A stretch of DNA of 64,000 bases from Cyclobacteriaceae bacterium (GTDB lineage: Bacteria > Bacteroidota > Bacteroidia > Cytophagales > Cyclobacteriaceae), in assembly GCA_020436165.1 (NCBI GenBank), contig JAGQYI010000029.1:62001-126000 (forward strand). Reading direction: 5' to 3'. The translations under genes were made by a program, and so were the position numbers. The notes under the pieces are model-generated. The model searched no databases. It was given only the letters and a program-made list of their open reading frames with translations, and was not told where the DNA came from. Positions 20,405-50,955 of the stretch are shown piece after piece. Each line of letters opens with the position of its first letter. The stretch's first letter is position 1.

Positions 20405-20407
20405 GTT

Positions 20408-20557
20408 ATGGATGTATGGGTTATTATCTTATTTGTAGTTGTTGTACTTCATTTTATAGCCGGTTTTGGCTATTTGATGTATAAGCTTTCTCCAAAAAAG
20501 AAGGACGATTCAGCCAATAATGACAAGCTTGATCAAAGCCAATCGGATCCTAAATGA
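20408..20557 (+). CDS. Small single-pass membrane protein, 49 residues
   Basis: ATG 20408 opens 49 codons encoding MDVWVIILFVVVVLHFIAGF (a strong membrane helix), then GYLMYKLSPKKKDD and a hydrophilic, Asn/Asp/Gln/Ser-rich tail ending SQSDPK. The positive cluster KLSPKKK after the helix predicts the C-terminus inside. The stop overlaps the next gene's start (ATGA at 20554-20557), and the start follows the amidohydrolase stop by 3 bp, so the three genes look translationally linked. The function is unknown. It is short, but the overlap, the amphipathic layout and the lack of other coding content support it as real. Confidence 0.65.
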   Translation: MDVWVIILFVVVVLHFIAGFGYLMYKLSPKKKDDSANNDKLDQSQSDPK

Positions 20558-33468: not shown

Positions 33469-33975
33469 ATGAAAGTATCAATCATTACATTTCTTATTAG
33501 TTTTTGTTTACTGTTTTCTAATTCAGAAACCTATGCGCAATCAGCGCTTGATAAACGGTTAGATACACTTTTAAGCTATACGGTTCCTGTTATAAAACAG
33601 GATGAATTGGCACGTATACTTGCGAATAAGAATATAACTCTGCTCGATACACGTACACAATCAGAGTATGATGTGAGTCATCTGAAAGGTGCCAAATTTA
33701 TTGATTACGATGCTTTTGCCCCTGAAATGGTAGCTGGAATGGATAAGAATGAACCGGTGGTGGTTTATTGTTCGGTAGGTTACAGAAGTGAGAAAATTGG
33801 TGAAAAGCTAAAGGAATTGGGATTTTCAAATGTTCAAAATCTTTACGGAGGAATTTTTGAATGGAAGAACCATGATCATGTAGTAGTTAACGATAATAAC
33901 ACACCAACCGATAGTGTGCATGTGTATGACGCTGATTGGGGGCAATATTTGCACAAGGGTATTAAGATTCATTAA
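33469..33975 (+). CDS. Exported rhodanese-like protein
   Basis: A 168-residue rhodanese-domain protein with signal peptide MKVSIITFLISFCLLFSNSE, cleavage near TYAQ-S. The domain includes ITLLDTRTQSEYDVSHLKGA and the active loop VVVYCSVGYRSEKI with the catalytic Cys101, then NLYGGIFEWKNHDHVVV. It probably moves sulfane sulfur or has a related role in the periplasm. A decayed copy of its C-terminal half lies at 35607-35822, beyond the beta-barrel gene, so an ancestral tandem pair was probably present. Confidence 0.9.
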   Translation: MKVSIITFLISFCLLFSNSETYAQSALDKRLDTLLSYTVPVIKQDELARILANKNITLLDTRTQSEYDVSHLKGAKFIDYDAFAPEMVAGMDKNEPVVVYCSVGYRSEKIGEKLKELGFSNVQNLYGGIFEWKNHDHVVVNDNNTPTDSVHVYDADWGQYLHKGIKIH

Positions 33976-34275: not shown

Positions 34276-35499
34276 CTAAAAAAGCTTGTAGCCTAGCATA
34301 ATTGACAAGTTTTTATAGCTTGAAAACCAATACGAATAGTTTCCCAAAAGATTAATATTTGATTGATATCGCACCTCGAAACTTAATTTTTCCTTCAATG
34401 TACAACCAATGCCCAGTGATACATTTTTTGTTGGTTTAATATCCAGAGAACTAACCAATGAACCATCTTCTCTGTTGAATGTAATGCTTGAATTGTTACT
34501 CAAATTCATTATGTAAGAAGCATTTGAAAAAATCTTAAAGCCACTCTTCAAAAAGATCGAATATCTTAAACCTACCGGAATTTGAATAGACTGATAGTCT
34601 ACTTTTGAAATCAGTTTTCCTCCAACTAGTAGAGAATATTCTTCTGATTTTTCAGAATTAAAATATTGATAGGAAGGCTCAGTAATTATTGCCCATTTGT
34701 TCTTGTTGAAGGGTAAAATGATCTCAGCCTCAACCCCAAACCTATAATTTATATTACTGCCAAAATTTGTGTCTCTTAAATTGCTTATAGAGTTATCAAT
34801 TGATAAACTGCTAAGGTTGACACCCGCTTTTAAAGCTAAATTAAAATAATCTCTTTTTTTTGTTTCAAATATTTCATTTTCAGAACCCGTACAAATATTG
34901 AATTTACTAAAAAACCTTTCTAAATCCTTTTCAAAATAGCCTATTCTTGTTACATCATTAACTGTAATACCCTGGCATTTAAGTTCAGTTAAGAGTTGCT
35001 GCTTATATAAATTATTCTCTACTATTTTATTTGAATTAGCAAGATAACGTCTGTACACCAATTGGGTTACCGCAGAAGTATCTACTTTGTAGAAAAAGCG
35101 AGTGATACTTTTATCCTGATAAAGATATAAAGATGCTTTTCCTTCTATGAGTACTTTGAGAAACAAAGTTTCTTCATCAAAAACAGGGTTTCTTTCGTGG
35201 CTCAATTCATCTATTTGATTACCCGAAATATCTATTTTTACACTATACCTTACATATTTGGAGTACCCATAAATTCCAAATTCTTTAATACCATCTATCT
35301 TAGCTTCCTCTACAGGAGCAGCTTCTGATAGTTTATATTGAAAAACAGATGGATTATTTCTCCAATCAACATTTTTAATTAAACAATCAATCTTTTGGTC
35401 AGATTCATTTACGAAATATCCTTTTTCAAAAGTAATCTGTGCATGCGATTGTAAACTCAGTAGAGCAGCAAGGGTTGTTATTACAATGTAATATCTCAT
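34276..35499 (-). CDS. Outer-membrane beta-barrel protein (PorT-like C-terminus), unknown role
   Basis: A 407-residue exported protein. The signal peptide is MRYYIVITTLAALLSLQSHA, cleaved before QITFEKG. Residues 20-190 form a beta-rich domain with the pattern KGYFVNESDQKIDCLIKNVD and DKSITRFFYKVD, known from many unnamed Bacteroidota proteins. From about residue 215 a barrel of alternating strands follows (FNLALKAGVNLSSLSIDNSI to LSIMLGYKLF), the usual outer-membrane barrel ending in an aromatic. It interrupts what looks like a former tandem of rhodanese genes and is oriented against them, which suggests insertion. The promoter is not clear. Confidence 0.7.
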   Translation of the reverse strand: MRYYIVITTLAALLSLQSHAQITFEKGYFVNESDQKIDCLIKNVDWRNNPSVFQYKLSEAAPVEEAKIDGIKEFGIYGYSKYVRYSVKIDISGNQIDELSHERNPVFDEETLFLKVLIEGKASLYLYQDKSITRFFYKVDTSAVTQLVYRRYLANSNKIVENNLYKQQLLTELKCQGITVNDVTRIGYFEKDLERFFSKFNICTGSENEIFETKKRDYFNLALKAGVNLSSLSIDNSISNLRDTNFGSNINYRFGVEAEIILPFNKNKWAIITEPSYQYFNSEKSEEYSLLVGGKLISKVDYQSIQIPVGLRYSIFLKSGFKIFSNASYIMNLSNNSSITFNREDGSLVSSLDIKPTKNVSLGIGCTLKEKLSFEVRYQSNINLLGNYSYWFSSYKNLSIMLGYKLF

Positions 35500-36036: not shown

Positions 36037-37911
36037 ATGAAACTAAACATTTATGAAAATGCAATGGAAGGAGCAATTGTCATTGCCAGGCGTATTGCGT
36101 CTCTAATTAAGCAAAAGCAAAAGGAAGATAAAATGGCGATATTGGGCCTTGCAACTGGTTCTTCGCCCATAGAGGTGTATAACGAGCTGGTTCGGTTGCA
36201 TAAAGAGGAAGGTCTTAGCTTCAAAAACGTTGTAAGCTTTAATCTTGATGAATATTATCAGCTAAAGCCTGAGGCGCTCCAGAGCTACCATAAATTTATG
36301 GACGACTATCTTTTCAATCATATTGATATAGACAGAGCAAATGTTTTTGTGCCTGATGGATTGGTTCCTGTTAAGGAAGTAGAGGCTTATTGTAAGGAAT
36401 ACGATCATCTAATTGAGGAAAAAGGAGGAATAGACCTTCAATTACTAGGAATCGGAAGAACAGGGCACATTGGCTTCAATGAACCGGGTTCTACTATTGA
36501 TTCTGCCACTCGTTTAGTCACATTGGATAAGATTACCCGCATGGACGCTGCAAAAGATTTTTATAGTCAATATAGGGTGCCCAAACAAGCCATAACAATG
36601 GGCATTAATGCCATCATGCATGCCAAAGAGGTTTATTTAATGGCTTGGGGTATTGGTAAGGCAGAAATAGTACAAAAGGCGTTGGAAGGTTCGATTTCTC
36701 AGCTTGTTCCAGCCTCTTTTTTACAGCGCCATCCGAATATCAATTATGCATTAGATGCAGCTGCAGCTTCAGAATTGGCAAGTGTTAAAACACCGTGGCT
36801 TGTAGGGCCCGTAAAATGGGACAAAAAGCAAATGAAGAAAGCTGTGGTTTGGCTTTGCCATAAAGTGAACAAGCCTGTTCTAAAGCTTACCAATGAAGAT
36901 TATGCAGAAAATGGAATGAATGAGTTGCTAACTGAACAAGGATCTGCTTACGATATTAACATCAATGTTTTTAATCAGTTGCAACATACCATTACAGGCT
37001 GGCCTGGGGGTAAGCCTTCTTCAGATGATTCACAGCGGCCGGAACGGAACAGTCCTTACCCTAAGCGTGTTCTTATTTTCAGCCCTCATCCTGATGATGA
37101 TGTAATTTCAATGGGCGGGACTCTGCTACGCCTTGTTGATCAGGGCCATGATGTTCATGTGGCGTACCAGGTGTCTGGTAATCTGGCAGTGTTTGACGAT
37201 TATGCATTCAGTTATCTGGATTTATCCATTGATCTGAACAATAAATTTGGAGATACTTCAGAAAATTTAGCGGAATTAAAATCCAATATTCTGAAACTTA
37301 TGGATGGTGAGCTCATAGATGAAAAAATCGTAGCTCAATACAGAATCCTTAAAGGACTGATACGAAGAAATGAAGCTAAAACTGCATGTAGATATTGCCG
37401 TGTAAAAGATGAGAATGTCCATTTTATGGATTTGCCATTTTATGAAACCGGTACAATTAAAAAGAAAACGTTGGGGGAAAAAGACATACAACTAACGGCA
37501 GATTTGATCAACAGAATAAAGCCGCATCAGCTATTTGTTGCCGGAGACTTGTCAGATCCTCATGGTACGCACCGTGTTTGCTTTGAAGCAGTTAAAAAGG
37601 CACTGAAAAAGCTGAAAAAAGAATCTTGGTCGAAAGATTGCAGAGTTTGGATGTATAGAGGGGCATGGCAGGAGTGGGAGACAGGTGAAATTGAAATGGC
37701 CGTTCCGATAAGCCCTGAAGAACTCTTACGTAAACGAAAGGCGATCTTCAAACATCAGTCTCAAAAAGATGGAGTGTTGTTTCCTGGTGACGATTCGCGT
37801 GAATTCTGGCAGAGGGCAGAAGATAGGAACAGAACTACTGCTAAAGCATATGATAAGTTGGGTATGGCAGAGTATGAAGCAATGGAAGCCTTTGTTGAGT
37901 ATAAGTTCTGA
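36037..37911 (+). CDS. Fusion of glucosamine-6-phosphate deaminase-like and PIG-L deacetylase-like domains
   Basis: A 624-residue cytoplasmic protein. Residues 1-260 are NagB-like: GLATGSSPIEVYNELVRLHK, the catalytic Asp71 in FNLDEYYQL, and LLGIGRTGHIGFNEPGSTID. E. coli NagB has GNDGH, whose Asp141 takes part in ring opening; here the aligned residue is Thr142, while His144 and Glu149 are kept. From about residue 345 a PIG-L/LmbE domain follows with zinc-site motifs FSPHPDDDVISMGG and DLSDPHGTHRVCF. PIG-L enzymes remove N-acetyl groups from GlcNAc derivatives, so one protein may deacetylate and then deaminate GlcNAc-6-phosphate. Such fusions are known in Bacteroidota, but the joint reaction is inferred. 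No nagA is seen in the window. Confidence 0.88.
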   Translation: MKLNIYENAMEGAIVIARRIASLIKQKQKEDKMAILGLATGSSPIEVYNELVRLHKEEGLSFKNVVSFNLDEYYQLKPEALQSYHKFMDDYLFNHIDIDRANVFVPDGLVPVKEVEAYCKEYDHLIEEKGGIDLQLLGIGRTGHIGFNEPGSTIDSATRLVTLDKITRMDAAKDFYSQYRVPKQAITMGINAIMHAKEVYLMAWGIGKAEIVQKALEGSISQLVPASFLQRHPNINYALDAAAASELASVKTPWLVGPVKWDKKQMKKAVVWLCHKVNKPVLKLTNEDYAENGMNELLTEQGSAYDININVFNQLQHTITGWPGGKPSSDDSQRPERNSPYPKRVLIFSPHPDDDVISMGGTLLRLVDQGHDVHVAYQVSGNLAVFDDYAFSYLDLSIDLNNKFGDTSENLAELKSNILKLMDGELIDEKIVAQYRILKGLIRRNEAKTACRYCRVKDENVHFMDLPFYETGTIKKKTLGEKDIQLTADLINRIKPHQLFVAGDLSDPHGTHRVCFEAVKKALKKLKKESWSKDCRVWMYRGAWQEWETGEIEMAVPISPEELLRKRKAIFKHQSQKDGVLFPGDDSREFWQRAEDRNRTTAKAYDKLGMAEYEAMEAFVEYKF

Positions 37912-38046
37912 ATGTGTATATCTACTTTTTACTATCTAAATAGTTTAATATTGACAAACATTGTTTTAAGATTGTTAGCGGCTGAAAGCTTTTAGTTTCT
38001 CAACAACCACCTATACCAGTTATAAATACACTTACAAAATACACTT

Positions 38047-39528
38047 ATGTTTTATTCTAAAAATTATTCAAAACTGGCTGCCTTCGCAATACTCCTGTTA
38101 ACTTTTTCATGTCAACAGGAGCAAAAAATAAAACGGTATGACGACCAGCTTTTTGCTGATTACGATCAATATAAAGAGCAGAGTCTGAAAAACAGGAGAA
38201 TTAAGCATAGCCAATTGCAGCCATTGATCGATAAGCTAAGGTCTAAAGAAGGAATAGAGATTACACCATTGGGGAAATCGATAGAGGGTAGGGAAATTTC
38301 AATGATTTCTATGGGGGAAGGAGATATAGATATTCTTCTTTGGTCGCAAATGCATGGTAATGAGCCAACAGCTACAATGGCCATTTTCGATATTCTTAAT
38401 TTTTTAACTGCATCGGATACATATGATGCACAAAGGCAGGCTTTGTTAAAAAATGCCAGAATACATTTTATACCAATGCTTAATCCGGATGGAGCCCAAA
38501 AGTTTAAAAGGAGAAATGCTTTGAATATTGATATTAACCGTGATGCGTTACGTTTACAAAGCCCTGAAGGAAGAATTTTGAAACGTGTTCGCGATAGCCT
38601 TAATGCAGATTTTGGTTTCAATTTACACGACCAGAGTATTTATTACAATGCAGAAAGGACAGAAAAACCGGCTACTCTATCTTATTTAGCCACAGCATTT
38701 GACTATGATAAATCAGTAAATGAGGTGAGAGAAAAATCGATGCAGGTCATTGGCTTCATGAATGACATAGTGCAGAAATATGCTCCAGGCCAGGTAGGCA
38801 GATATTCAGATGATTTTGAACCCAGGGCTTTTGGAGATAATATCCAAAAATGGGGAACAAGTCTGATTCTGATTGAATCTGGTGGATACAAAAATGATAC
38901 TGAAAAGCAGTTTATTAGAAAGTTAAATTACATTTCAATACTATCTGCTCTTTTTGGGATTGCCGATAATAGCTATGCGTTGATCAACCCGGATGAGTAT
39001 GAAAAAATACCCTTTAATGATAGAAAGCTATTTGATTTGAAAATTGAAAAGATGAACTACGAATTGAATGGTAAGACATATGTGTTGGATGTGGGTATAG
39101 ATCTAAATGAGGTTGATAATGAGGACCATACTTCATTTTATTCAATTGGTAAAGTGGAAGATATAGGTGATTTATCCACGTATTATGGGTACCAAACCAT
39201 TGATGCAACCGGCTTAGATTATCAGCAGGGTAGAACATATTTACTCTCAGATGATGATGATTTATCATCTATTTCGTTTAGTGGATTACTTAATGATGGT
39301 TTTGTTGCTGTCTCAACAGATATGGCTTCGGATTCACTGGCATTTAATTCCTACCCAATAAACTTTGTTAAAAAAGATGCCGGTTTTACGACCCGTTTAG
39401 ATTTAGGTCAGAACGCAACTTTTTTGTTAAAAAATGGAGATTCTTTGGCCTACGTTATACTTAATGGTTTTGTTTACGTGCCAGGAAATAGTACGGACTT
39501 CATTAAAAATGGTATTGTAAATAAATAG
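38047..39528 (+). CDS. M14 zinc carboxypeptidase lipoprotein
   Basis: A 493-residue lipoprotein with signal MFYSKNYSKLAAFAILLLTF and lipobox TFSC. All M14 catalytic positions are visible: His103 and Glu106 (WSQMHGNEPTAT), the Arg in DINRDA (R165), His194 in FNLHDQ, and the general base Glu278 in ILIESGGY. The C-terminal 150 residues are a beta-rich accessory region. M14 enzymes such as MpaA cut the gamma-D-Glu to diaminopimelate bond in murein peptides. The neighbours (S66 carboxypeptidase 4 bp downstream, SusCD and dipeptide epimerase) fit this. A protein-peptide substrate is also possible. Confidence 0.88.
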   Translation: MFYSKNYSKLAAFAILLLTFSCQQEQKIKRYDDQLFADYDQYKEQSLKNRRIKHSQLQPLIDKLRSKEGIEITPLGKSIEGREISMISMGEGDIDILLWSQMHGNEPTATMAIFDILNFLTASDTYDAQRQALLKNARIHFIPMLNPDGAQKFKRRNALNIDINRDALRLQSPEGRILKRVRDSLNADFGFNLHDQSIYYNAERTEKPATLSYLATAFDYDKSVNEVREKSMQVIGFMNDIVQKYAPGQVGRYSDDFEPRAFGDNIQKWGTSLILIESGGYKNDTEKQFIRKLNYISILSALFGIADNSYALINPDEYEKIPFNDRKLFDLKIEKMNYELNGKTYVLDVGIDLNEVDNEDHTSFYSIGKVEDIGDLSTYYGYQTIDATGLDYQQGRTYLLSDDDDLSSISFSGLLNDGFVAVSTDMASDSLAFNSYPINFVKKDAGFTTRLDLGQNATFLLKNGDSLAYVILNGFVYVPGNSTDFIKNGIVNK

Positions 39529-39532
39529 TCTC

Positions 39533-40588
39533 ATGAATCGCAGAAAATTTGTTCGATCATCCATGCTTGCTTCCGGAGTGGCTATGCTGCCATTTACTAA
39601 AGGAAATGCAAGTGAATACACTAAGGAAAAAAAGATAATCAAACCAAAACGCCTTGCGAAAGGAGATACAGTTGGGCTTATTGCCCCTTCAAGTGGGGTC
39701 GATCGGACAACTTTTGAACGTACGTTGGAGCACATAGATACCTTAGGATTCAAGGCTTTTTATACGGATCGGTTAAGAGTACAGAAAGGTTTTTTGGCAG
39801 GTACCGATAAATTAAGGGCCGAAGATGTAAATACAATGTTTGCTAATGATCAAGTGAATGGAATTGTTTGCGTTAGGGGAGGCTACGGTAGTGCCAGAAT
39901 TCTTGATATGATTGATTACGATCTGATAAAGAACAACCCCAAGCCTCTTATTGGATACAGTGACATTACGGCTTTGCTGTATGGTATTTATCAACAAACC
40001 GGGTTGATTGGTTTTCACGGCCCTGTAGGAGTTTCATCCGTTAGCCCTTTTAATGAAGAGGTCTTTGATAAGCTACTTATTCAGGGCGAGCGTAATTTTG
40101 AAATCCATAGACCCTCTGAATGGGATGAGTTTAAAGAAGACCCCTATAAAAGTTTTGTGATTAACCCGGGAGTTGCAAAAGGGCAGCTTATTGGCGGAAA
40201 CCTGAGTGTAATGGTTTCACTTGTGGGAACACCGTTTGACATTGACTTCTCTGACAAGATTGTTTTTATGGAAGAGGTACATGAAAGCCCTTACAGGGTA
40301 GACAGAATGCTTACCCAATTATTGCAATCTGGCAAATTTGAGAAAGCTGCGGGAATAGCGTTGGGAATATTCAGAGACTGTGATTACGAACCTGATGACA
40401 AAGGATACGACTTATCTCTTTCGCTTTATGAAGTACTTATGGACAGGTTTGCGCAGCTGAAAATACCTGTAATGTATGGCTTGCCTTATGGCCATATTAA
40501 ACAAAATGCAACCTTACCATTTGGTGGATATGCAGAACTTGATACCTCTAGGCAAGCCCTAACGATTACCGAATCTCCTGTTTTGTAA
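39533..40588 (+). CDS. LD-carboxypeptidase, S66 family
   Basis: This family removes the terminal D-Ala from murein tetrapeptides. The 351 residues begin MNRRKFVRSSMLASGVAMLP, a twin-arginine-like signal (RRKFV), so it should be exported, unlike the cytoplasmic E. coli LdcA. The substrate-binding segment is CVRGGYGSARILDMIDYD, the nucleophile Ser143 is in LIGYSDITAL, a Glu is in FMEEVHESPYRVDRM (about 247-249) and His321 is in GLPYGHIKQN. The Ser-Glu-His triad therefore appears complete. It follows the M14 gene by 4 bp and is likely cotranscribed. A weak terminator follows. Confidence 0.92.
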   Translation: MNRRKFVRSSMLASGVAMLPFTKGNASEYTKEKKIIKPKRLAKGDTVGLIAPSSGVDRTTFERTLEHIDTLGFKAFYTDRLRVQKGFLAGTDKLRAEDVNTMFANDQVNGIVCVRGGYGSARILDMIDYDLIKNNPKPLIGYSDITALLYGIYQQTGLIGFHGPVGVSSVSPFNEEVFDKLLIQGERNFEIHRPSEWDEFKEDPYKSFVINPGVAKGQLIGGNLSVMVSLVGTPFDIDFSDKIVFMEEVHESPYRVDRMLTQLLQSGKFEKAAGIALGIFRDCDYEPDDKGYDLSLSLYEVLMDRFAQLKIPVMYGLPYGHIKQNATLPFGGYAELDTSRQALTITESPVL

Positions 40589-40590
40589 TC

Positions 40591-40630
40591 AAGCCAATTA
40601 ATAATATTTTATTTGGACTTTTTTATTTTT
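40591..40630 (+). terminator. Weak terminator after the S66 gene
   Basis: AAGCCAA (40591-40597) pairs with TTGG-A-CTT (40613-40620) with one bulge, then a long T-rich tract. It would separate the peptidase genes from susC. Confidence 0.5.
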
Positions 40631-40706
40631 TGCCAAATATCCGACTGATTGTATCTAGTTTGACTACTGTTGTTTTTATATGACTTATATTTTTCTTTTT
40701 TAAGAT

Positions 40707-40722
40707 ATTGATAATCAGTAGA
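40707..40722 (+). promoter_or_regulatory. 16-bp motif ATTGATAATCAGTAGA, copy 2
   Basis: Identical to the motif at 35927, here 117 bp before the susC start, within a 235-bp gene-free leader. Possible shared regulatory element. Confidence 0.4.
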
Positions 40723-40823
40723 TAATAATAATTTAAAGAAAAACTAATGACCATTTTTATGAATTGTATGACTATGGTATTATTGATACATCTAAAAAAT
40801 ATGTTTTAGTTAATCCTTAATCT

Positions 40824-43800
40824 ATGAAGAAACATGTTACTCTATTTGTGACTTCGTTCATCATGCTATTGACACTAAGCGTTTTTGCTCAAGAGCGCTC
40901 GGTTAATGGTAAGGTGTCAGACGAAGATGGAAACCCCGTACCCGGGGTAAATGTGGTGGTCAAGGGATCATCAACAGGCGCGGTTACCGATATAGATGGT
41001 AATTACAAGTTAAATGTGCCCAATGAATCATCTTTGGTGTTTTCGTTTATTGGATATGAGACCCAAACCATTTTGGTAGGCAATCAATCAGTTATAAATG
41101 TAACACTTAAACCGGATGTGGTTTCTCTTTCTGAGGTTGTTGTAACTGCATTTGGTATATCCAGGGAAAAGAAAGCTTTAGGATATTCTGTTGAGCAAGT
41201 AAGTAGTGACGAGATTACATCTAGTGGTCAAACCAATATTGTAAATGCCCTACAAGGAAGAGTTGCAGGTGTTACTATCAGGAATTCAAGTGGAACACCT
41301 GGTTCTGGAGCAGATATTATAATCAGGGGTATTTCTTCTCTTGATCCAGGAAGAAGTAACAGACCATTATATGTTATTGATGGTATCGAAATGAGTGATG
41401 ATGTAGATGCATTGCCTATTTTACCAAGTGCAGGTAGTAATGCTACCTCTTCTATGTCTCAGGCAAGTGTGAGTAACCGGGCAATAGATATCGACCCCGA
41501 TGATATTGAATCAATGACCATTTTAAAGGGTGCTCAGGCAACCGCCCTTTATGGTATCAGGGCTGCAAACGGGGCCATCATAATAACTACTAAAAAAGGT
41601 CAAAAAGGTGCTCCTCAAGTTGACTTATACTATAGTGGTGGTTGGTCGAATGTAAATAAGACACCAACTGTTCAGCGATCCTATATTGATGGTCGTTTTA
41701 ATACGTATGTAAAACGTGACGGGTACGTTTGGGATACCTGGGGAGCTCCTGTGTATTCAGGTGAGCCAGATCCAACACATGACATTTATAAAGAGTTTTT
41801 TGTAAAAGGTACAGAGCAAGGGTTTGGTGGCAGTGTGGCAGGAGCCAATGACATATTTAACTACCGTTTTTCGATTGATAGGTTTTACCAGACAGGAGTT
41901 ATACCTAATACCGATTGGGGAAAAACTAACTTTAGCTTATCTACTGGTGTAAAAATTGGAAAGAAATTGGAAGCTAACGCTACACTTAAATATGCCAATA
42001 CAGGTGGAAATAAACCTCATGTTGGAGATAAATCCATTCTAAGTGATTTAAGTTACGTGTCGCCAGTAGCGGATGTAACACATTACGATGTGCCTTATAC
42101 CTACAATGGAAATGCATTTGCTGGTATTATAGACCATCCACTGTACCTTGCCGATGTCAATAGTTATGTAGATAATGTAAACCGTTACATATCTGGTATT
42201 GGTCTTAAATACTCATTAAATGATCATATTTCGATAAACTACAAACTTGGTTCTGATATCTACAGCGATTTACGAACACGTATTGTCAATGCTGAAACAG
42301 ATGAAGGTTCTAAGGTACATGGGTTTGTAATTGAGCAAAGCAATAATAGCTCGTCAGTTACTTCTAACATTTTTGCTCAGTTGAATTATAATCTTCCAGG
42401 TGAAATAAGCCTTACAGGTGTGGTTGGTCAGTATACCTATATAAGTAACAAAAAATACATCAGTACAAGAGGTGAAGACCTTGTGTTGGATGATTTCTAC
42501 AACTTAAATAATACCGTTAACTTGTTTCAGGATAACAGTGATATTAAATACAGAAATGCTGCTGTGTATGGTGAATTAACTGCCGGGTACAAAAATTATC
42601 TGTTTTTAACTGTTACTGGTCGAAATGACTGGTCATCTACATTACCAAAACAAAATAATTCATACTTTTTCCCATCCGTTAGCGTCTCATGGGTTGCTTC
42701 CGATATGTTCAAGCTTCCTGAATTTATAACCTTTGCCAAGATACGCAGTTCATATGCTGTTATCGGTAAAGATGCTTCACCTTATAAAACAGGCCGTTAC
42801 TTTGAAAAGGCTGCTAATTTTCCATTTGGTGACGCTTTAGGTTTTAAGCAATCTACGCTAATTGGGGATGAAAACCTTAAACCTGAGTTTACTAAAACTT
42901 TTGAAGTTGGAACTGATTTAAGGTTTATGAATAATAGAGTAGGTATTGACTTTACCTATTATAAAAACAACTTAACAGATATGATTCTTTCAGTTCCCAT
43001 AAGTAATGCTACTGGTGCTGCTCGTTTTGTTACCAATGCTGGCTCAATGACTAATTATGGAATTGAAATAACTGCCACAGGAACACCAATTAAGGTCAAC
43101 GATTTTAACTGGAATGTGAATCTCAACTGGACAAAGCAGCAAGGTAAGGTTGTTGATATTTCTGAAGGGATCGAGGACATAGAATTGTACTCAGCTTTTG
43201 GTATCACCAATAAATATGTTATTGATGGTAAAATTGGTGATTTGTATGGGTACAAATATATGCGTGCTCCTGATGGACAATTACTAATAGACTCAAATGG
43301 ATTCCCAGAAGTTAATTGGGATAGTCTTCAATTAGCAGGTAACGCATTTCCTGATTGGACGGCAGGTATGACAAATACCTTTAGTTACAAGGGTATTGAG
43401 CTATCTGTATTATTGGAATGGAAACAAGGGGGTAAAGCGATAGATATGGGAAGAAGGAACAGTATGAGAAATGGCCAGCTTAAAGAAACGGAAAGAAGAT
43501 TTGAAGAAGTAGTTTTCAATGGGGTGGTTCTAAATGCTGATTCTACTTATTCGCCTAATACTACACCAGTTCAAATTACACCTGCCTTTTATCGATCGAC
43601 TACGTATTACAATTATGCGGCAGAGGTTCTTTTAGAAGATGCTTCCTGGTTTAGGATTCGAAATATAAGTCTGGCTTATTCACTGCCAGCAAGCTTGTTT
43701 TCAAAAATATTTATCAAATCGGCCAAGGTCTCGTTTACAGCTAATAATGTTTTCTTAAACACTCCTTTTAAAGGGTATGATCCGGAAACAAATTATTTCG

Positions 43801-43886
43801 GTAGTGGAAGCAATATTTATGGGTATACAGGGCTTAAAACACCTGCTACACGTAGTTATTCATTTAGGTTAAATATTGGTTTTTAA
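40824..43886 (+). CDS. SusC/RagA-type TonB-linked outer-membrane receptor
   Basis: A 1020-residue TonB-dependent importer. The signal peptide is MKKHVTLFVTSFIMLLTLSV with cleavage near FAQ-E. The carboxypeptidase-regulatory-like repeat follows (NGKVSDEDGNPVPGVNVVVK, to about residue 100), then the TonB box region (LSEVVVTAFGISREKKALGY), the plug domain (about 120-250, with ILKGAQATALYGIRAANGAI and ITTKKG) and a long 22-stranded barrel ending in FRLNIGF. It pairs with the SusD lipoprotein 12 bp downstream. The substrate of SusCD pairs cannot be read from sequence; here the M14, S66 and epimerase neighbours point to peptides of murein type rather than a glycan. No glycoside hydrolase or sigma/anti-sigma pair lies beside it. 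Confidence 0.96.
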   Translation: MKKHVTLFVTSFIMLLTLSVFAQERSVNGKVSDEDGNPVPGVNVVVKGSSTGAVTDIDGNYKLNVPNESSLVFSFIGYETQTILVGNQSVINVTLKPDVVSLSEVVVTAFGISREKKALGYSVEQVSSDEITSSGQTNIVNALQGRVAGVTIRNSSGTPGSGADIIIRGISSLDPGRSNRPLYVIDGIEMSDDVDALPILPSAGSNATSSMSQASVSNRAIDIDPDDIESMTILKGAQATALYGIRAANGAIIITTKKGQKGAPQVDLYYSGGWSNVNKTPTVQRSYIDGRFNTYVKRDGYVWDTWGAPVYSGEPDPTHDIYKEFFVKGTEQGFGGSVAGANDIFNYRFSIDRFYQTGVIPNTDWGKTNFSLSTGVKIGKKLEANATLKYANTGGNKPHVGDKSILSDLSYVSPVADVTHYDVPYTYNGNAFAGIIDHPLYLADVNSYVDNVNRYISGIGLKYSLNDHISINYKLGSDIYSDLRTRIVNAETDEGSKVHGFVIEQSNNSSSVTSNIFAQLNYNLPGEISLTGVVGQYTYISNKKYISTRGEDLVLDDFYNLNNTVNLFQDNSDIKYRNAAVYGELTAGYKNYLFLTVTGRNDWSSTLPKQNNSYFFPSVSVSWVASDMFKLPEFITFAKIRSSYAVIGKDASPYKTGRYFEKAANFPFGDALGFKQSTLIGDENLKPEFTKTFEVGTDLRFMNNRVGIDFTYYKNNLTDMILSVPISNATGAARFVTNAGSMTNYGIEITATGTPIKVNDFNWNVNLNWTKQQGKVVDISEGIEDIELYSAFGITNKYVIDGKIGDLYGYKYMRAPDGQLLIDSNGFPEVNWDSLQLAGNAFPDWTAGMTNTFSYKGIELSVLLEWKQGGKAIDMGRRNSMRNGQLKETERRFEEVVFNGVVLNADSTYSPNTTPVQITPAFYRSTTYYNYAAEVLLEDASWFRIRNISLAYSLPASLFSKIFIKSAKVSFTANNVFLNTPFKGYDPETNYFGSGSNIYGYTGLKTPATRSYSFRLNIGF

Positions 43887-43898
43887 CAAAAAGGAATC

Positions 43899-45314
43899 AT
43901 GAAAAGAAAATATAGATTTTACGGATACAGTTTACTTATTGTTTATTTACTTACAATAACGAGCTGCGATAAATTTTTGGATGTTAATAACGATCCTACC
44001 AAGGTACAGGAAGACCAGGCAAGGCTTAATGTACTTTTGCCAACAGCTATTGAAGCAACGTCTGCGTCACACTATTCCAGCGTTTTTACAGCCGCACGGG
44101 TAACACACCAAGTGGATCATGTTGCAGGCTACTATACTGAGTTTAGGATGGAGAGTAATTGGTCAAGAATTTACCTTGAGACTCTTAATACATTGGATTT
44201 AATGGTAAGCAAGGCGGATGACGAAGGATCTCCCTACTATGCAGGAATTGCGAGAACACTTGAGGCAATAAACCTTGGGTTACTTACTGATACCTGGGAA
44301 GATGCTCCTTTTACTGAGGCTTTGCGTGGTTCAGATAATATTACTCCAGCTTATGACAGTCAAGAGGCTATTTACAACGCTATTTTCTCTTATCTTGATG
44401 ACGCAATAGGTTATTTAGGCCAGAGCGAGTCGTTTAATGTACCGGGAGCTGACGATATGATCTATGATGGTGATTTGAGTAAATGGTTGAAATTGGCCCA
44501 TTCCCTGAAAGCTCGCTACATGTTACACTTAATGGCTAAGGGTACTTATTCCGCATCTGAAATCCTTGCGGAGGTAGATGCAGGATTTGCCTCCAACGAT
44601 GATAATTTCGAATTGTTTTACAACGATGTTAATCTTAATCCACTTTATAATGGCGTTGCATTGTCCAATGAAACTGGTAACCTAACCATAACTCATGGTA
44701 AGTATTTGGTAGATGTAATGAATGGAACATTGTATGGACTTTTTGACCCTCGTCTTCCAATAATTGCTGATACCACCGGAAGCGGTGGCACCTCTTACGA
44801 AGGACTTGCATCGTATGACCCAGGTAGTCCACCACATACATGTGAACTATCACGAAATGCCTGGTATTCGTCCATAAATGCTCCAATCATTATGATGAGT
44901 TATTCCGAATTGAAATTTATAGAAGCGGAAGTTGCGTTATCAAGCGATGTTCCAAGAGCTGATGCTGCTTATCTTGAAGGAATTTCCTCTAATATGGATA
45001 TGTTAGGGGTAGCAAGTGTGGATAGAGATGCTTACTTGACAGATCCGTCAGTTGCTTTGGGGGGTACACCAGATATAGAACACATTATGAAAGAAAAATA
45101 TGTGGCTTTATTCCTGAATTTTGAAGTTTGGAACGACATGAGAAGGCATCATTTTGATCCCAGCGTATACGTTGGATTTGTTGAACCAAATTTAGATGGA
45201 CGTTCTGAGCCAGCAGAAAGGGCCTTGTATCCGACAACTGAACAAAATAGGAATGAGTCAAGTCTTAGTTCTCATCAAAGGGATTTTACAGCCTCAATGT
45301 GGAAAGACCAGTAA
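43899..45314 (+). CDS. SusD/RagB-family lipoprotein
   Basis: The substrate-capturing lid lipoprotein on the outer face of the SusC barrel. The 471 residues begin MKRKYRFYGYSLLIVYLLTI with lipobox TSCDKF, followed by FLDVNNDPTKVQEDQ, a typical SusD start. The helical TPR-like core reads YYAGIARTLEAINLGLLTDT, WEDAPFTEALRGSDNITPAY and DDAIGYLG; MMSYSELKFIEAEVAL and the C-terminal WNDMRRHHFDPS are typical of the SusD-like 2 group. It is 12 bp after susC and 27 bp before the next lipoprotein gene. Confidence 0.95.
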   Translation: MKRKYRFYGYSLLIVYLLTITSCDKFLDVNNDPTKVQEDQARLNVLLPTAIEATSASHYSSVFTAARVTHQVDHVAGYYTEFRMESNWSRIYLETLNTLDLMVSKADDEGSPYYAGIARTLEAINLGLLTDTWEDAPFTEALRGSDNITPAYDSQEAIYNAIFSYLDDAIGYLGQSESFNVPGADDMIYDGDLSKWLKLAHSLKARYMLHLMAKGTYSASEILAEVDAGFASNDDNFELFYNDVNLNPLYNGVALSNETGNLTITHGKYLVDVMNGTLYGLFDPRLPIIADTTGSGGTSYEGLASYDPGSPPHTCELSRNAWYSSINAPIIMMSYSELKFIEAEVALSSDVPRADAAYLEGISSNMDMLGVASVDRDAYLTDPSVALGGTPDIEHIMKEKYVALFLNFEVWNDMRRHHFDPSVYVGFVEPNLDGRSEPAERALYPTTEQNRNESSLSSHQRDFTASMWKDQ

Positions 45315-45341
45315 TTAGTTTTAATTAAAGGATTCAATAAA

Positions 45342-45779
45342 ATGAAAATACTTAAATATTTATTTGCGATAAGTGCTCTAATGTTTGTGTTGTCTTCATG
45401 TTACAAGGAAGAATATTTTCTAGATGACAATACAACTTCTAATGGTCGCCATTTTCCTGTTTTACAAACAGTTGTGGTAGATAATGAGCCGGAAACCGGA
45501 TTTACTGAGGGAAGTACAGTTGAAATTGTAGTTCATTATTTTTCAGTTGATCCAATACTTCAATATGAATTATATGAAACTGTAGGAGCAGGAAGTGAAG
45601 CACTTTACTCAACTACTCCATATAAGTATACATATGACCCAGATACTCAAAGTGAAGTGGTAACGCTCAATTATGTGGTACCTGCAGGTAGCTCTGGAGA
45701 AGGTATTGGACTGAACGTTGTGATAGTAAATGAAAACGGTTTGGTAGCTAATAAGTCGACTTCAATTGATGTCAACTAA
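45342..45779 (+). CDS. Small surface lipoprotein of the SusCD operon
   Basis: A 145-residue lipoprotein with signal MKILKYLFAISALMFVLSSC. The mature part is beta-rich and acidic with an Ig-like fold impression (GFTEGSTVEIVVHYFSVDPI, then EVVTLNYVVPAGSSG). It lies 27 bp after susD and before a strong hairpin. By position it is an auxiliary binding protein (SusE/F-like role), but the sequence does not match a family I can name. Confidence 0.75.
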   Translation: MKILKYLFAISALMFVLSSCYKEEYFLDDNTTSNGRHFPVLQTVVVDNEPETGFTEGSTVEIVVHYFSVDPILQYELYETVGAGSEALYSTTPYKYTYDPDTQSEVVTLNYVVPAGSSGEGIGLNVVIVNENGLVANKSTSIDVN

Positions 45780-45787
45780 TTATTATT

Positions 45788-45824
45788 AAGAATATTAGGG
45801 CTGTAAAAGGCCCTAGTATTCTTT
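45788..45824 (+). terminator. Terminator-like hairpin after the SusCD operon
   Basis: GAATATTAGGGC (45790-45801) pairs with GCCCTAGTATTC (45810-45821) with one mismatch. The T-tract is weak (TTTAATGG, then TGTTTTTG). It separates the operon from the epimerase gene. Confidence 0.7.
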
Positions 45825-45840
45825 AATGGTTGTTTTTGTC

Positions 45841-45858
45841 ATAGCTTGCAAAAGCTAT
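45841..45858. repeat. Hairpin with GCAA loop upstream of the epimerase gene
   Basis: ATAGCTT and AAGCTAT enclose GCAA, a GNRA-type loop. The rest of 45859-45990 holds no gene. Purpose unknown. Confidence 0.3.
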
Positions 45859-45990
45859 ATGACTAATTATGATTGTTTGGCTGCCTAAAGTGTCCATTCT
45901 ATAAAATTGTATTCCAACTAATCGTTAATGTGACGAAACCTTTTGATAAGAGGTTGATGTAGGGTACTAAAGAACTGAGTAAGCCGAGAA

Positions 45991-47043
45991 ATGAAACTAG
46001 TACTTCATACTTATGACCTTAAACTAAAGCACAAGTTTAAGATAGCACATGATTCCCGAACGGTTCAGAAAACGCTAATAGTAGAACTTAATCATGGCGC
46101 TCATTCAGGGTTCGGAGAAGCTACTGCCAGTAATTATTACAAGGTTTCAATTGATGTAATGATTTCCGAACTGGAAGCCAACAGAAAGCTTATCGAGTCC
46201 TACAATTTTGAAAAACCTGAGGAGTTTTGGAAAAAGCTCAAGGTCTATATTGGTAATTCATTTGTACTATCTGCCTTAGATGTTGCAATTCACGATCTTT
46301 ATGCTAAAGCAAAAGGCAAATCGCTTCGTGAGCTCTGGGGATTGTCAAATCACTTTTTTCCTACCTCAAATTATACCATTGGCATTGATACGATTGAAAA
46401 TATGGCTGCCAAGCTGAAGGAGTTTCCCTGGCCGAAGTATAAAATAAAATTGGGCACCAAAGAGGATATCAAAATTATAAGGGAATTAAGAAAGCTTACA
46501 GATGCTGTTTTCAGAGTTGATGCCAATTGTGGATGGTCAGTTGAAGAAACTCTTGAAAATGCCAGAATGCTAAAGGAGCTTAATGTAGAATTTATTGAAC
46601 AACCTTTGGCAGCTGGTAATTGGGAAGGTATGAGTATCCTGCACAAGAAGTCGGAATTGCCCATTTTTGCGGATGAAAGTTGTATCAACGAACAGGATAT
46701 AAATAAATGTGTCGGTCATTTTCACGGGGTTAATATAAAGCTCATGAAGTGTGGTGGTTTTACACCGGCAAAACGAATGATACAGAATGCCAGAAACCAG
46801 GGAATGAAGGTTATGGTTGGCTGCATGACCGAGTCATCAGTAGGTATTTCTGCAGTTGCTCAACTGCTTCCTATGTTGGATTATGTAGATATGGATGGTT
46901 TTTTGCTCTTAGAGAACGATATCGCTGAGGGGCCTAAATTAATAAACAATAAAATCGTGGTTCCTCAGGGTGAAGGTATTGGAGTAAATCGTCTTTTTAC
47001 TGCTGCTGCAAACAAACTGGAAAATGTAACTACGGGAAGCTAA
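45991..47043 (+). CDS. Dipeptide epimerase, L-Ala-D/L-Glu type (enolase superfamily)
   Basis: Epimerises the second residue of a dipeptide, classically L-Ala-D-Glu from murein to L-Ala-L-Glu, so that ordinary peptidases can use it. The 350 residues show the KxK catalytic pair K151/K153 (KYKIKLG), metal ligands Asp177 (VDANCGW), Glu203 (EQPL) and Asp228 (FADES), and the opposite base Lys250 (VNIKLMKCGG). The DxD motif (D300, D302 in YVDMDGFLLL), which in this family holds the substrate amino group, is present and supports a dipeptide substrate over other enolase-family reactions. There is no signal, so it is cytoplasmic. It follows the SusCD operon and is separated from it by a hairpin. Its end overlaps the convergent gene by 4 bp. 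Confidence 0.92.
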   Translation: MKLVLHTYDLKLKHKFKIAHDSRTVQKTLIVELNHGAHSGFGEATASNYYKVSIDVMISELEANRKLIESYNFEKPEEFWKKLKVYIGNSFVLSALDVAIHDLYAKAKGKSLRELWGLSNHFFPTSNYTIGIDTIENMAAKLKEFPWPKYKIKLGTKEDIKIIRELRKLTDAVFRVDANCGWSVEETLENARMLKELNVEFIEQPLAAGNWEGMSILHKKSELPIFADESCINEQDINKCVGHFHGVNIKLMKCGGFTPAKRMIQNARNQGMKVMVGCMTESSVGISAVAQLLPMLDYVDMDGFLLLENDIAEGPKLINNKIVVPQGEGIGVNRLFTAAANKLENVTTGS

Positions 47044-48008
47044 AGATCCTCAGGACGGTGCGCAAGTTGCGTGTTGATTAAACCACAGTCTATATTTTTA
47101 TGAAAATAATCGAAAACCTGGCGGTCAAAAGTACTTTGATTTAAATCCTTTGAATTGTTAAGAATTGTTTCCTTGATATTTTCATAATCAAAAGGGTTCT
47201 CTTGCCTTACAAGGATATTTTTTTTCGAAATCGCCTCTTTTTTGTTATTGAGTGAAGAAGAAGTTCCCATTAATAGTTGAGGAGTGGTAGCAAAACCAAC
47301 ATTCAGAACATGAAATTCATATTCATTGAAATTCACGTTCTTCAAAACCATATATAAAGCACCATCTTCCAACCAAACAGACTCACTAATATAGCTGTGT
47401 CCTAATGTTTTTGATTTTACCAGTATGGATTCATCTGAATCACAAGATATTGTAAAAGGAACCTTCACAACGGCTCCGCTTTTATCGGTTTTTAGATAAT
47501 ACCGATAGTATGAACCCAGATAGTATTTTTTAATAAGTGCATCTGATCCTGCATGTTTACTAACTGCTGCTATAACAGGTTGTTTCCCCGATTTCCATTC
47601 TTCCCAGTTATTATAATCAACGTTCAGGAAAGTAAGCAAAACATTTATTTTTTTATCTTTTGGTATTGACTCTTCCTGCCAATAGCTTTGAAGTGTTTTG
47701 CCACTTATCCAATTGTAGGTTCTGTATTTTGGAATATGTTTTAAATAGGACGTAAACTCTGATACGGTTTGCAACGAATGTCTTTCAAAAACACGATCCA
47801 GCTCGTTTGTGCCAATTAGTACATTGTCTTCGATTAGGAAGGGAGCGTTAATTACATTTTCAGTTACTTTTCTATTGATCTGTTTGGCAATATTCATGAA
47901 AGTCGTTCTGGTCAATTTGGACCAGTCAACATTCCCGTTTTGTCTTCTAACAATAGGTTGAATAACAGGAGAGTTCTCAATTTCAGATTTTATTCTCTTT
48001 GGAAGCAT
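47040..48008 (-). CDS. Unknown protein, 322 residues
   Basis: I do not recognise this gene. It has no signal peptide or membrane helix. Residues 50-140 are helical and charged (TNELDRVFERHSLQTVSEFT, then SGKTLQSYWQEESIPKDKKI), perhaps a DNA-binding or adaptor part; the segment KTDKSGAVVKVPFTISCDSD to VLNVGFATTP is beta-rich. The start at 48008 is reasonable. The gene is convergent with the epimerase, ends 4 bp inside it, and lies 106 bp from the membrane protein gene upstream on the same strand. Confidence 0.7.
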   Translation of the reverse strand: MLPKRIKSEIENSPVIQPIVRRQNGNVDWSKLTRTTFMNIAKQINRKVTENVINAPFLIEDNVLIGTNELDRVFERHSLQTVSEFTSYLKHIPKYRTYNWISGKTLQSYWQEESIPKDKKINVLLTFLNVDYNNWEEWKSGKQPVIAAVSKHAGSDALIKKYYLGSYYRYYLKTDKSGAVVKVPFTISCDSDESILVKSKTLGHSYISESVWLEDGALYMVLKNVNFNEYEFHVLNVGFATTPQLLMGTSSSLNNKKEAISKKNILVRQENPFDYENIKETILNNSKDLNQSTFDRQVFDYFHKNIDCGLINTQLAHRPEDL

Positions 48009-48589: not shown

Positions 48590-49753
48590 TTAGTATATTA
48601 AGTTAAAAGCTCCCTCAGTTAATACTATATCTGTTGGTTTAAAATCGTTCACATTTTTTATCTCAATCCATCCGTTTTGATTTTTTCCCGGTATCACTTC
48701 TTTCTTAGTGAATACTTCTTCGTTTTCATTCTCGCTTTGTTTTATCAGCGCGTAATAGGCGTTCTCTGCATTTATTACAGCGGTTTCCGGCAGGGCAGGA
48801 GCACTTTCGCTATCAATGGCAATTTGTGCTTCTACATACATGCCCGGCACAAATAGGTTCGACAGGGATTCGTCTTTGAGGTGCCCGTGAACATTCACAA
48901 TTCTGTTTTCGTCTTCTACGGTTTTGCCTACCAGGTGAACTTCGGCATCGTACCATTTGGTGCTGGCATCTGGCAGCTGAAATTTGATGTTCTGGCCCAC
49001 CTTTACTTTTTGAATATCTTTTTCATAAACGTTTAGTTCCAGATGAATATGATCCGAGTTTATTAGTTCAACAGCTACATCCGTAGGATTCAAATACATT
49101 CCTTTAGTTGCATTTACTTTGGTTACGTATCCGGCAATGGGGGCGTAAATCACAATGCTTGTTTGAAGATTTGAACCAGATATTTTAGCAGGGTCAATGT
49201 TTATAAGTCGTAGTTTCTTTTTCAACGACTCGTACATGGCCAGGGTGACATTGTAATCCGTTTGTGCCTTCAGGTAATTCTTTTGCGAAGCAATATTGTC
49301 CTTTGCCAGTGTTTGCTGACGTTCGTAATCGGCTTTTAAATACGCAAGCTTATTCTTGGTTTCCAGAAAATCCTGTTGCATTTGCACGTACTCCGGGTTG
49401 CCTAATGTAAACAACATCTGACCCTTTTTTACCTTTTGGCCAGGTAATAAGCTTATGCTTTCTACAAAGCCACCATAATAGGTGCTAACAGATGCTTTGT
49501 TTTCAGGTGGAACATCAATCATGCCATTGGCATGAACAGTAGATGAAAACTCTTTTTCTGCTAGCGAACCCAGCTTCATGCCAGACGATTCAAATTGCTT
49601 TTTAGTAATTACAACCTGATCAGATTCTGCGTTGGCGGTAGCCTCTTTAGTAGAATCGTTTTCTGAGCCACATGATTCCAGTAGTACAGAAAAGCCTATA
49701 AGTAGGAATAGTTTGGAGGCGTATTTTACCAATGATTTATTGCGTAGTTGCAT
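48590..49753 (-). CDS. czcB: RND efflux periplasmic adaptor (CzcB-type)
   Basis: A membrane-fusion protein that links the RND pump to the outer-membrane channel. The 387 residues start with a lipoprotein signal (lipobox LLESCGS near residue 28). The biotinyl-lipoyl half motifs flank a coiled-coil hairpin: GFVESISLLPGQKVKKGQML, then QQDFLETKNKLAYLKADYER, and IVIYAPIAGYVTKVNATKGM. The beta-barrel part includes VKVGQNIKFQLP and GHLKDESLSNLFVPGMYVEA. It lies between the outer-membrane factor and the small membrane protein in the order czcA-czcC-czcB. Confidence 0.9.
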   Translation of the reverse strand: MQLRNKSLVKYASKLFLLIGFSVLLESCGSENDSTKEATANAESDQVVITKKQFESSGMKLGSLAEKEFSSTVHANGMIDVPPENKASVSTYYGGFVESISLLPGQKVKKGQMLFTLGNPEYVQMQQDFLETKNKLAYLKADYERQQTLAKDNIASQKNYLKAQTDYNVTLAMYESLKKKLRLINIDPAKISGSNLQTSIVIYAPIAGYVTKVNATKGMYLNPTDVAVELINSDHIHLELNVYEKDIQKVKVGQNIKFQLPDASTKWYDAEVHLVGKTVEDENRIVNVHGHLKDESLSNLFVPGMYVEAQIAIDSESAPALPETAVINAENAYYALIKQSENENEEVFTKKEVIPGKNQNGWIEIKNVNDFKPTDIVLTEGAFNLIY

Positions 49754-49757
49754 CTTC

Positions 49758-50954
49758 TTAATTCATTAAATAGTTGATCTCCAGAACAGTTTGATTATAG
49801 TTGTATAGATTTTCCAAATAAGTCATTTCTATACTTTTAGCATTATCCAGCGACAAAATGTACTGAACAAAGTCAATTTCACCATTTTGAAATGCCTTGG
49901 TTGCTGTATGTATCAACTCTGAGGAAAGTGTCTTACCATTCTGGACGTAATAATTTATAGCTTCTTCGTATTTTGTTAATTCGGTTTCCAATTGGCGATA
50001 CCTGGTTATTAACTCTTGTTTGTAATTAAGCGCTTCACTTTGAACTGCTTCTGTTTCCAGTTTAGCAGCATTTATTTTCGACTTTTGCGCACCAAAGAAG
50101 AGTGGAATTCCTATTCCGGCTTGAAAACCCTGATATACTTTAGAGTCCATGCCATTATTTGTTCCTTGAAAATAATTGAGATTGATATCGGGAAGCAATT
50201 TTTGTTTCTCAATACTTACCTTACTTTCTGATAGACTTACAGCTCCCTGGTAATAAAGCAATCCGGGGTGTCTTAGTGTATCTATGCTGGTAGGTTCCAG
50301 TTTGTCAAGATTTGATTCTGTTACTACAAATGCACTATCCAATTGCATCCATTTGTTTAACTCCAGGTGCCCCTTGGTTATATTTTCCTTTATTTGCAAG
50401 AGCATTAAACCAACCTCTTTTTGTTTGGAGGTAGCCGTTAATTTTTCCAGATAGTTGGTTTCACCTACTTCATATCTGCGAGATGCTGCAATTGAGAACT
50501 GCTTATACAAACTGTCGAGGTAATGGTAATTAGCGGCCACATTTTGCCAGTAAACAAGTGTATTATATGCTTTTGAAACCTCTTTTCTTAGCAATTGTTC
50601 ATTTATCTGAAACTCTTGTTCTTTCAAAAATACCTGGGCCTTATTGGCGTTACGTTGTGCCCCATAAACGGTAGGGAATTGCAACGACTGACTAATTCCC
50701 CAAACTCCTATTGGTAATCCGTTTTCTGCAATATTGTTTTCATCGTAATGGTAGTAAACTTCTGTTTTGTCAATGTCGAAGGCGGTTCCAACCATTTTTC
50801 TCGCGTGCTCAACCTGAGTAGAAGAGGCTCTTAGTCCTGCATTGTTTTTTAATGCCAGATCAATGGCTGTTTCCAGGGTAATTTCTTTTGGCTGTGCAAG
50901 AGCAATAACTGGCAGTGAGAGTAATAGTATAAATAAGATATTGGCTCTTTTCAT
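49758..50954 (-). CDS. czcC: TolC-like outer-membrane factor (CzcC-type)
   Basis: The outer-membrane channel subunit of the metal efflux system. I chose ATG 50954, which gives MKRANILFILLLSLPVIALA and cleavage before QPKEITLE; an earlier ATG at 51014 would overlap czcA by 59 bp and precede the signal with a hydrophilic stretch. The 398-residue product has the two-fold repeat of long helices (ALKNNAGLRASSTQVEHARK, RRYEVGETNYLEKLTATSKQ, then the second repeat ending SLDNAKSIEMTYLENLYNYN). It starts 1 bp after the czcA stop and ends 4 bp before czcB. Confidence 0.9.
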   Translation of the reverse strand: MKRANILFILLLSLPVIALAQPKEITLETAIDLALKNNAGLRASSTQVEHARKMVGTAFDIDKTEVYYHYDENNIAENGLPIGVWGISQSLQFPTVYGAQRNANKAQVFLKEQEFQINEQLLRKEVSKAYNTLVYWQNVAANYHYLDSLYKQFSIAASRRYEVGETNYLEKLTATSKQKEVGLMLLQIKENITKGHLELNKWMQLDSAFVVTESNLDKLEPTSIDTLRHPGLLYYQGAVSLSESKVSIEKQKLLPDINLNYFQGTNNGMDSKVYQGFQAGIGIPLFFGAQKSKINAAKLETEAVQSEALNYKQELITRYRQLETELTKYEEAINYYVQNGKTLSSELIHTATKAFQNGEIDFVQYILSLDNAKSIEMTYLENLYNYNQTVLEINYLMN

Positions 50955-50955
50955 G

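Follow-up and report, generated by a model that had tools for sequence, protein, structure and literature searches.

The 64,000-nucleotide stretch analysed here (the window; Cyclobacteriaceae bacterium, assembly GCA_020436165.1, contig JAGQYI010000029.1, positions 62,001–126,000) carries at 36037–47043 a block of seven open reading frames, all on the + strand, in which a SusC/SusD (SusCD) outer-membrane import system lies among genes for two carboxypeptidases, a dipeptide epimerase and an amino-sugar enzyme. An earlier note, written from the letters of the DNA, had read the same genes at the same coordinates and suggested that the block scavenges murein peptides. Open reading frames and family profiles (Pfam and NCBIfam, judged against curated cut-offs) confirm the gene content, and a survey of related loci across Bacteroidota supports murein peptides as the probable cargo.

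Gene content and catalytic residues of the block

The intergenic gaps, in order along the block, measure 135, 4, 235, 12, 27 and 211 base pairs. Such spacing does not make a single tight operon; judged by gap size, the tight units are M14–S66 and SusC–SusD–lipoprotein. The four gaps examined show no promoter pattern of the Bacteroidetes type, and Pfam gives no glycoside hydrolase or polysaccharide lyase family match among the seven genes.

The importer is formed by a SusC-type TonB-dependent outer-membrane transporter (40824–43886; TIGR04056, 670 bits, cut-off 368), which carries the SusC/RagA signature (TIGR04057, 60 bits, cut-off 46), and an adjacent SusD-type surface lipoprotein of the SusD-like_2 family (43899–45314; PF12771, 192 bits, cut-off 27), whose Cys23 is invariant. 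The predicted SusD structure (mean model confidence, pLDDT, 80) adopts the SusD fold, with BT2259 as its nearest solved relative (VIA-align Z 36.8, root-mean-square deviation 3.0 over 410 residues) and a Z of 33.8 against BT2263. A small lipoprotein follows (45342–45779; lipobox read from the sequence), possibly an accessory cargo binder; it has no Pfam family match, and homologues lie directly 3′ of SusD in nine other loci (L058, L106, L107, L109, L184–L188).

Upstream of the importer lie the two carboxypeptidases. The M14 zinc carboxypeptidase (38047–39528; PF00246, 53 bits, cut-off 21.6) holds His103 and Glu106 (HxxE), Asn164–Arg165 (NR), His194 and Glu277; these zinc and catalytic positions are invariant in 32 relatives, bearing out the completeness first read for this site. 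Its sequence matches among solved structures include no murein-specific M14. In the S66 LD-carboxypeptidase (39533–40588; PF02016 and PF17676), Ser143 (GxSD), Glu247 and His321 do not vary among 15 relatives and, by alignment and by comparison with LdcA, probably form the Ser–Glu–His triad. Judged by eye, S66 begins with a twin-arginine-like signal (MNRRKFVRSS...) and M14 with a lipoprotein-like one, so that both are probably exported, as had been proposed; such signals occur in most relatives, and the S66–M14 pair of one locus (L067) has none. A scan of genome contigs with the S66 protein returned six loci only, all distant, and was of little use. That S66 might confer immunity to a peptide antibiotic in the manner of MccF was rejected, its context giving no support to this.

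The dipeptide epimerase (45991–47043; MR_MLE_N and MR_MLE_C, enolase superfamily) is probably of the L-Ala-D/L-Glu type. Its nearest solved structures are 3iji, 3ijl and 3ijq from B. thetaiotaomicron (3iji, E 8e-61), and it also aligns with the E. coli Ala-Glu epimerase (1jpd). KxK (151/153), Asp177, Asp228, Lys250 and the DxD motif (300/302), the last of which had been singled out as typical of dipeptide epimerases, are invariant in 59 relatives, a set that takes in the metal ligands. Arg23, present in 52 of the 59, aligns with E. coli Arg24, a position at which an arginine presumably contacts the Glu part of the substrate. Given these nearest structures and this arginine, a specificity for hydrophobic or cationic dipeptides appears less likely.

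The first gene of the block (36037–37911) encodes a NagB–PIG-L fusion, that is, a glucosamine-6-phosphate deaminase-like domain joined to a GlcNAc-PI de-N-acetylase-like domain (NF002557, 1,020 bits, cut-off 384). We rejected it as proof of murein use; the gene is common and weak evidence by itself.

Related loci and the convergent gene at 47040–48008

Orthologous loci were picked by SusD similarity alone and their contexts then read: 26 loci nearly all from the same family (L041 comes from another family of the order), 20 from elsewhere in the phylum and 20 controls with a distant SusD. Scoring a strict murein-peptide gene within six genes of SusD, we found murein-linked loci in 16 of 26 and 8 of 20 cases, respectively, against one of the 20 controls (Fisher p = 6e-5 for the family and 0.01 for the phylum, both overstated because the loci are related). 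In the SusD tree, the window protein falls in a clade of 25 rows (Shimodaira–Hasegawa-like approximate likelihood ratio support 90), 12 of them murein-linked, 5 S13-linked, 8 unlinked and none a control. The co-occurrence whose absence the earlier note had named as refuting its reading is thus found, in many genera and in several arrangements, and it brings in further murein enzymes: LysA, DadA, MurQ, amidase, VanX-like and S13 peptidases, NlpC/P60 and a pairing of a DgcN-like protein with an epimerase.

One operon of this kind reads SusC–SusD–lipoprotein–S66–amidase–M14–DUF1611–epimerase (L117), with similar orders in L105, L108 and L124; in L122, LysA and a D-aminoacylase are present in addition, on the opposite strand. 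S66 adjoins SusCD in five loci (L105, L108, L110, L117 and L124). Outside the order, L191 and L198 combine SusCD with an SH3–NlpC/P60 protein (its class assigned in L198), a class-A beta-lactamase-like protein, an amidase and S13, while epimerase and KBL adjoin SusCD in L189, L190 and L194. In other families of the phylum, the neighbours of the orthologous SusCD include S13, amidase, NlpC/P60, D-aminoacylase or epimerase/M14.

Where a SusCD operon contains DUF1611 (DgcN-like), the accompanying epimerase is of another subgroup and the window-type one is absent from the operon. The pairing recalls the DgcN–DgcA D-glutamate pathway; unlike that pathway, the window genome has no detectable DUF1611, nor do two same-genus genomes, and the DgcN-like genes score 132–145 bits, far under the DgcN cut-off of 480, so that their identity is weak. 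Two solutions for D-Glu exchanged at the same operon position are a good sign that D-Glu must be handled by the locus.

Epimerase loci give a second view. Two same-genus genomes (L038 and L039) hold SusC–SusD–lipoprotein–DadA–epimerase–LysA, SusC lying off the contig in one of them; the LysA of this operon scores above its curated cut-off and is found as a second copy besides the biosynthetic LysA (G001, G004 and G197). Across 58 epimerase loci, genes no more than three places from the epimerase include M14 in 25, S66 in 9, LysA in 7, DadA in 4 and a BioF/KBL-like gene in 21, and 13 loci have none of these. The clearest case (L065) runs NagB–PIG-L, BadF/NagK-like, MurQ (324 bits, cut-off 302), Amidase_2, M14, VanX-like M15, DadA, epimerase and LysA, so that a homologue of the first gene of our block also heads this series; another (L070) groups DadA, amidase, M14, epimerase and a VanX-like gene. 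Arrangements vary, with M14 divergent or co-directional, S66–epimerase–KBL–LysA in some loci and SusCD–DadA–epimerase–LysA in others; because of these differences, the set is not one inherited block.

The epimerase gene is abutted by a convergent gene on the − strand (47040–48008) that also belongs to the locus; the proposed extent of seven + strand genes stands, and this eighth gene had been missed. Homologues 37–49% identical adjoin SusC in seven loci (L105–L108, L117, L122 and L124) and follow the lipoprotein in L110, which makes eight further murein-linked SusCDs, and another neighbours an epimerase in L066; none occurs in the 20 control loci. Within the order, the gene was found in 5 of 390 genomes, two of the five holding a diverged copy at a different, amine-related SusCD, as in L206, where amine-oxidase-like and aminotransferase-like genes accompany it. 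The gene is therefore not exclusive to murein loci, which supports a role as a SusCD regulator and not murein in itself. Its AlphaFold model (pLDDT 76) has a helical N-terminal part and a small C-terminal β-barrel of ligand size at about residues 152–270. Foldseek returned nothing under E 0.006 and only small β-barrels, a search that barely tested the helical domain; the VIA-align matches at Z 11, designed barrels and Cap15 among them, are not taken as kinship, and the structural matches are generic barrels. Our best guess is a ligand-sensing local regulator.

Several observations from these loci stand apart. Three SusCD operons encode a fusion of M14 with a class-A beta-lactamase-like domain (L108:4846-7329, L117:4818-7484 and L124:12348-14840; confirmed with Pfam for L108), and a stand-alone protein of the beta-lactamase-like type lies beside SusCDs in L122, L187, L188, L191, L192 and L198; rather than conferring resistance, it may hydrolyse murein peptides. 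The BioF/KBL-like enzyme near 21 of the 58 epimerases is a pyridoxal-phosphate (PLP) enzyme of about 355 residues (for example L042:10509-11573). A second kind of SusCD (SusD of about 435 residues) occurs with NagB–PIG-L and MurQ at L126:2490-9952 and L129:4325-12553, and MurQ and a NagK-like gene also lie close to the SusD of the control locus L140; all three are candidate SusCDs for MurNAc (N-acetylmuramic acid) or amino sugars.

A proposed route for murein peptides and competing explanations

We read the block as a nutrient locus in which SusCD serves to take up the peptide moiety of murein, a reading to which we give a probability of roughly three in four, with cargo and chemistry inferred from the genes. 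Murein-derived peptides would be captured by SusD and the small lipoprotein and imported by SusC with TonB energy. The S66 enzyme, presumably exported by the twin-arginine route, would then release the D-Ala that caps diaminopimelate (mDAP) in tetrapeptides, and M14, a probable lipoprotein, would cut further, most likely at the γ-D-Glu–mDAP bond by analogy with E. coli MpaA. The product, L-Ala-D-Glu, would cross the inner membrane through a permease encoded outside the locus and be converted by the epimerase to L-Ala-L-Glu, a substrate for ordinary dipeptidases. NagB–PIG-L would serve the amino-sugar side, and the convergent gene is the likely sensor or regulator. AmpG (TIGR00901) has no match in the window genome (95% complete) or in three others (G061, G115 and G283), and matches below the cut-off in G004 and G197; in the absence of AmpG, it would be reasonable for peptides to be cut short before they cross the inner membrane. 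Elsewhere in the window genome are MurQ with a kinase-like gene (G000:C15), a distant DadA-like protein and a biosynthetic LysA.

Several points weigh against this assignment. LysA, DadA, MurQ and amidase are not in the window block. The epimerase stays below the Ala-Glu epimerase equivalog cut-off (PRK15129, 139 versus 343) and below those of other curated models (NF041118, 134 versus 500; DgcA, 219 versus 400), and S66 below that of LdcA (PRK11253, 189 versus 378), so that both specificities are probable, not proven. In the survey, the loci are not independent, and the list of scored genes grew while the family loci were read, which makes the family count partly post hoc; the phylum set, drawn afterwards, is the cleaner test. 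Moreover, no murein gene lies near 10 of the 26 and 9 of the 20 close SusD orthologues, so that cargo may differ within the clade.

The strongest competitor is a general peptide importer of the RagAB or BT2261–2264 kind whose peptidases happen to include M14 and S66, murein peptides being one cargo of many. The nearest solved SusDs by fold, BT2259 and BT2263, fit it, the latter belonging to the BT2261–2264 complex that we take to carry peptides, as do the breadth of the M14 family and some close SusDs accompanied only by S13 and an S9 peptidase. We nevertheless consider it improbable: epimerase, DgcN-like, DadA, LysA and VanX-like enzymes are dedicated to D-Glu, D-Ala and diaminopimelate, and MurQ and amidase to murein itself, none of which is obtained from proteins.

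Within the murein reading, the peptides may come from other bacteria or from turnover of the cell's own wall. A system that mainly recaptures its own fragments would suit a genome with no AmpG match, in which periplasmic fragments would be lost unless another route took them, and the signal-less S66 and M14 of L067 resemble a cytoplasmic recycling set. SusCD, however, works at the outer membrane on outside material, and own periplasmic fragments need no importer unless shed first, which makes recycling as the main purpose improbable. Least of all do we favour other D-Glu-rich cargo such as poly-γ-glutamate or non-ribosomal peptides: a D-Glu or dipeptide epimerase is common to many locus variants and M14 enzymes can act on γ-glutamyl bonds, but the LysA, VanX-like, amidase, MurQ and LD-carboxypeptidase neighbours indicate murein, leaving this very improbable.

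Extending the murein-peptide assignment beyond the window, we tentatively suggest, at somewhat less than even odds, that one Bacteroidota-wide SusD clade is a dedicated murein-peptide importer. It would be served by modules that can replace one another, for D-Glu (either an Ala-Glu epimerase or a DgcN-like protein with an epimerase), D-Ala (DadA, VanX-like) and diaminopimelate (LysA), and in some lineages controlled by a new sensor family, that of 47040–48008, which would bind a murein fragment in its small β-barrel.

Known systems and neighbouring genes

The murein peptide pathway of E. coli is cytoplasmic and fed via AmpG and peptide permeases. MpaA, LdcA and YcjG share enzyme classes and chemistry with the window locus (M14, S66 and Ala-Glu epimerase); here, by contrast, S66 and M14 have export signals, a SusCD is attached and AmpG was not found in the genome. 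The BT2261–2264 system of B. thetaiotaomicron shares the SusD fold (Z 33–34) and a SusC/SusD with small extra lipoproteins, but its SusD is 20% identical to that of the window; we know of no murein enzymes in that locus, whose cargo is, to our knowledge, general peptides. RagAB of Porphyromonas gingivalis is likewise a SusCD-type importer implicated in protein and peptide uptake (PMC11817032), but its cargo is protein-derived oligopeptides, and it is not known to carry murein peptides.

The closest precedent is a predicted SusCD cluster with mostly murein genes in the Urechidicola symbiont of Idas mussels (PMC10199937, 2023). It too joins SusCD pairs with nagB, an L-Ala-D/L-Glu epimerase, bioF and a DD-carboxypeptidase; unlike the window locus, it has ampG, murQ, ampD and glycoside hydrolases and is discussed as a glycan locus, and the report names no M14, S66, LysA or 47040-type regulator and makes no cargo claim or test (PMC10199937). 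Murein peptides had been put forward as a new cargo class for SusCD; the Urechidicola cluster means that this is not the first sighting. No functional study of a SusCD with murein peptides was found in the searchable literature, to which most subscription papers do not belong. The block is probably a dedicated cell-wall-peptide feeding system. Since SusCD systems are nearly always interpreted as importers of glycans, their numbers serve to predict diets of polysaccharides; a SusCD clade feeding on cell-wall peptides would change such predictions. It would also open bacterial necromass and pools of D-amino acids to Bacteroidota, and give those of the gut or sea a way to remove host-sensed muropeptides.

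Elsewhere in the window, the genes of a lipoprotein amidohydrolase and, next to it, a fold-III PLP enzyme (18686–21648) may represent further D-amino-acid use; the latter is weakly similar to 3-hydroxy-D-aspartate aldolase (60 bits, cut-off 690). Upstream of NagB–PIG-L, the non-coding segment 35660–35830 carries a degenerate second copy of the C-terminal part of the rhodanese-like gene 33469–33975, from which an outer-membrane protein gene (34276–35499) separates it; read from the sequence, this suggests local duplication. CzcCBA/CusCBA-type heavy-metal RND efflux genes, as judged from their translations, adjoin the locus on the − strand (48590–54087), with no link to it seen. Further on, two very similar FtsX-like ABC permease reading frames stand in tandem (57990–59237 and 59239–60489), followed by a third, pointing to recent duplication.

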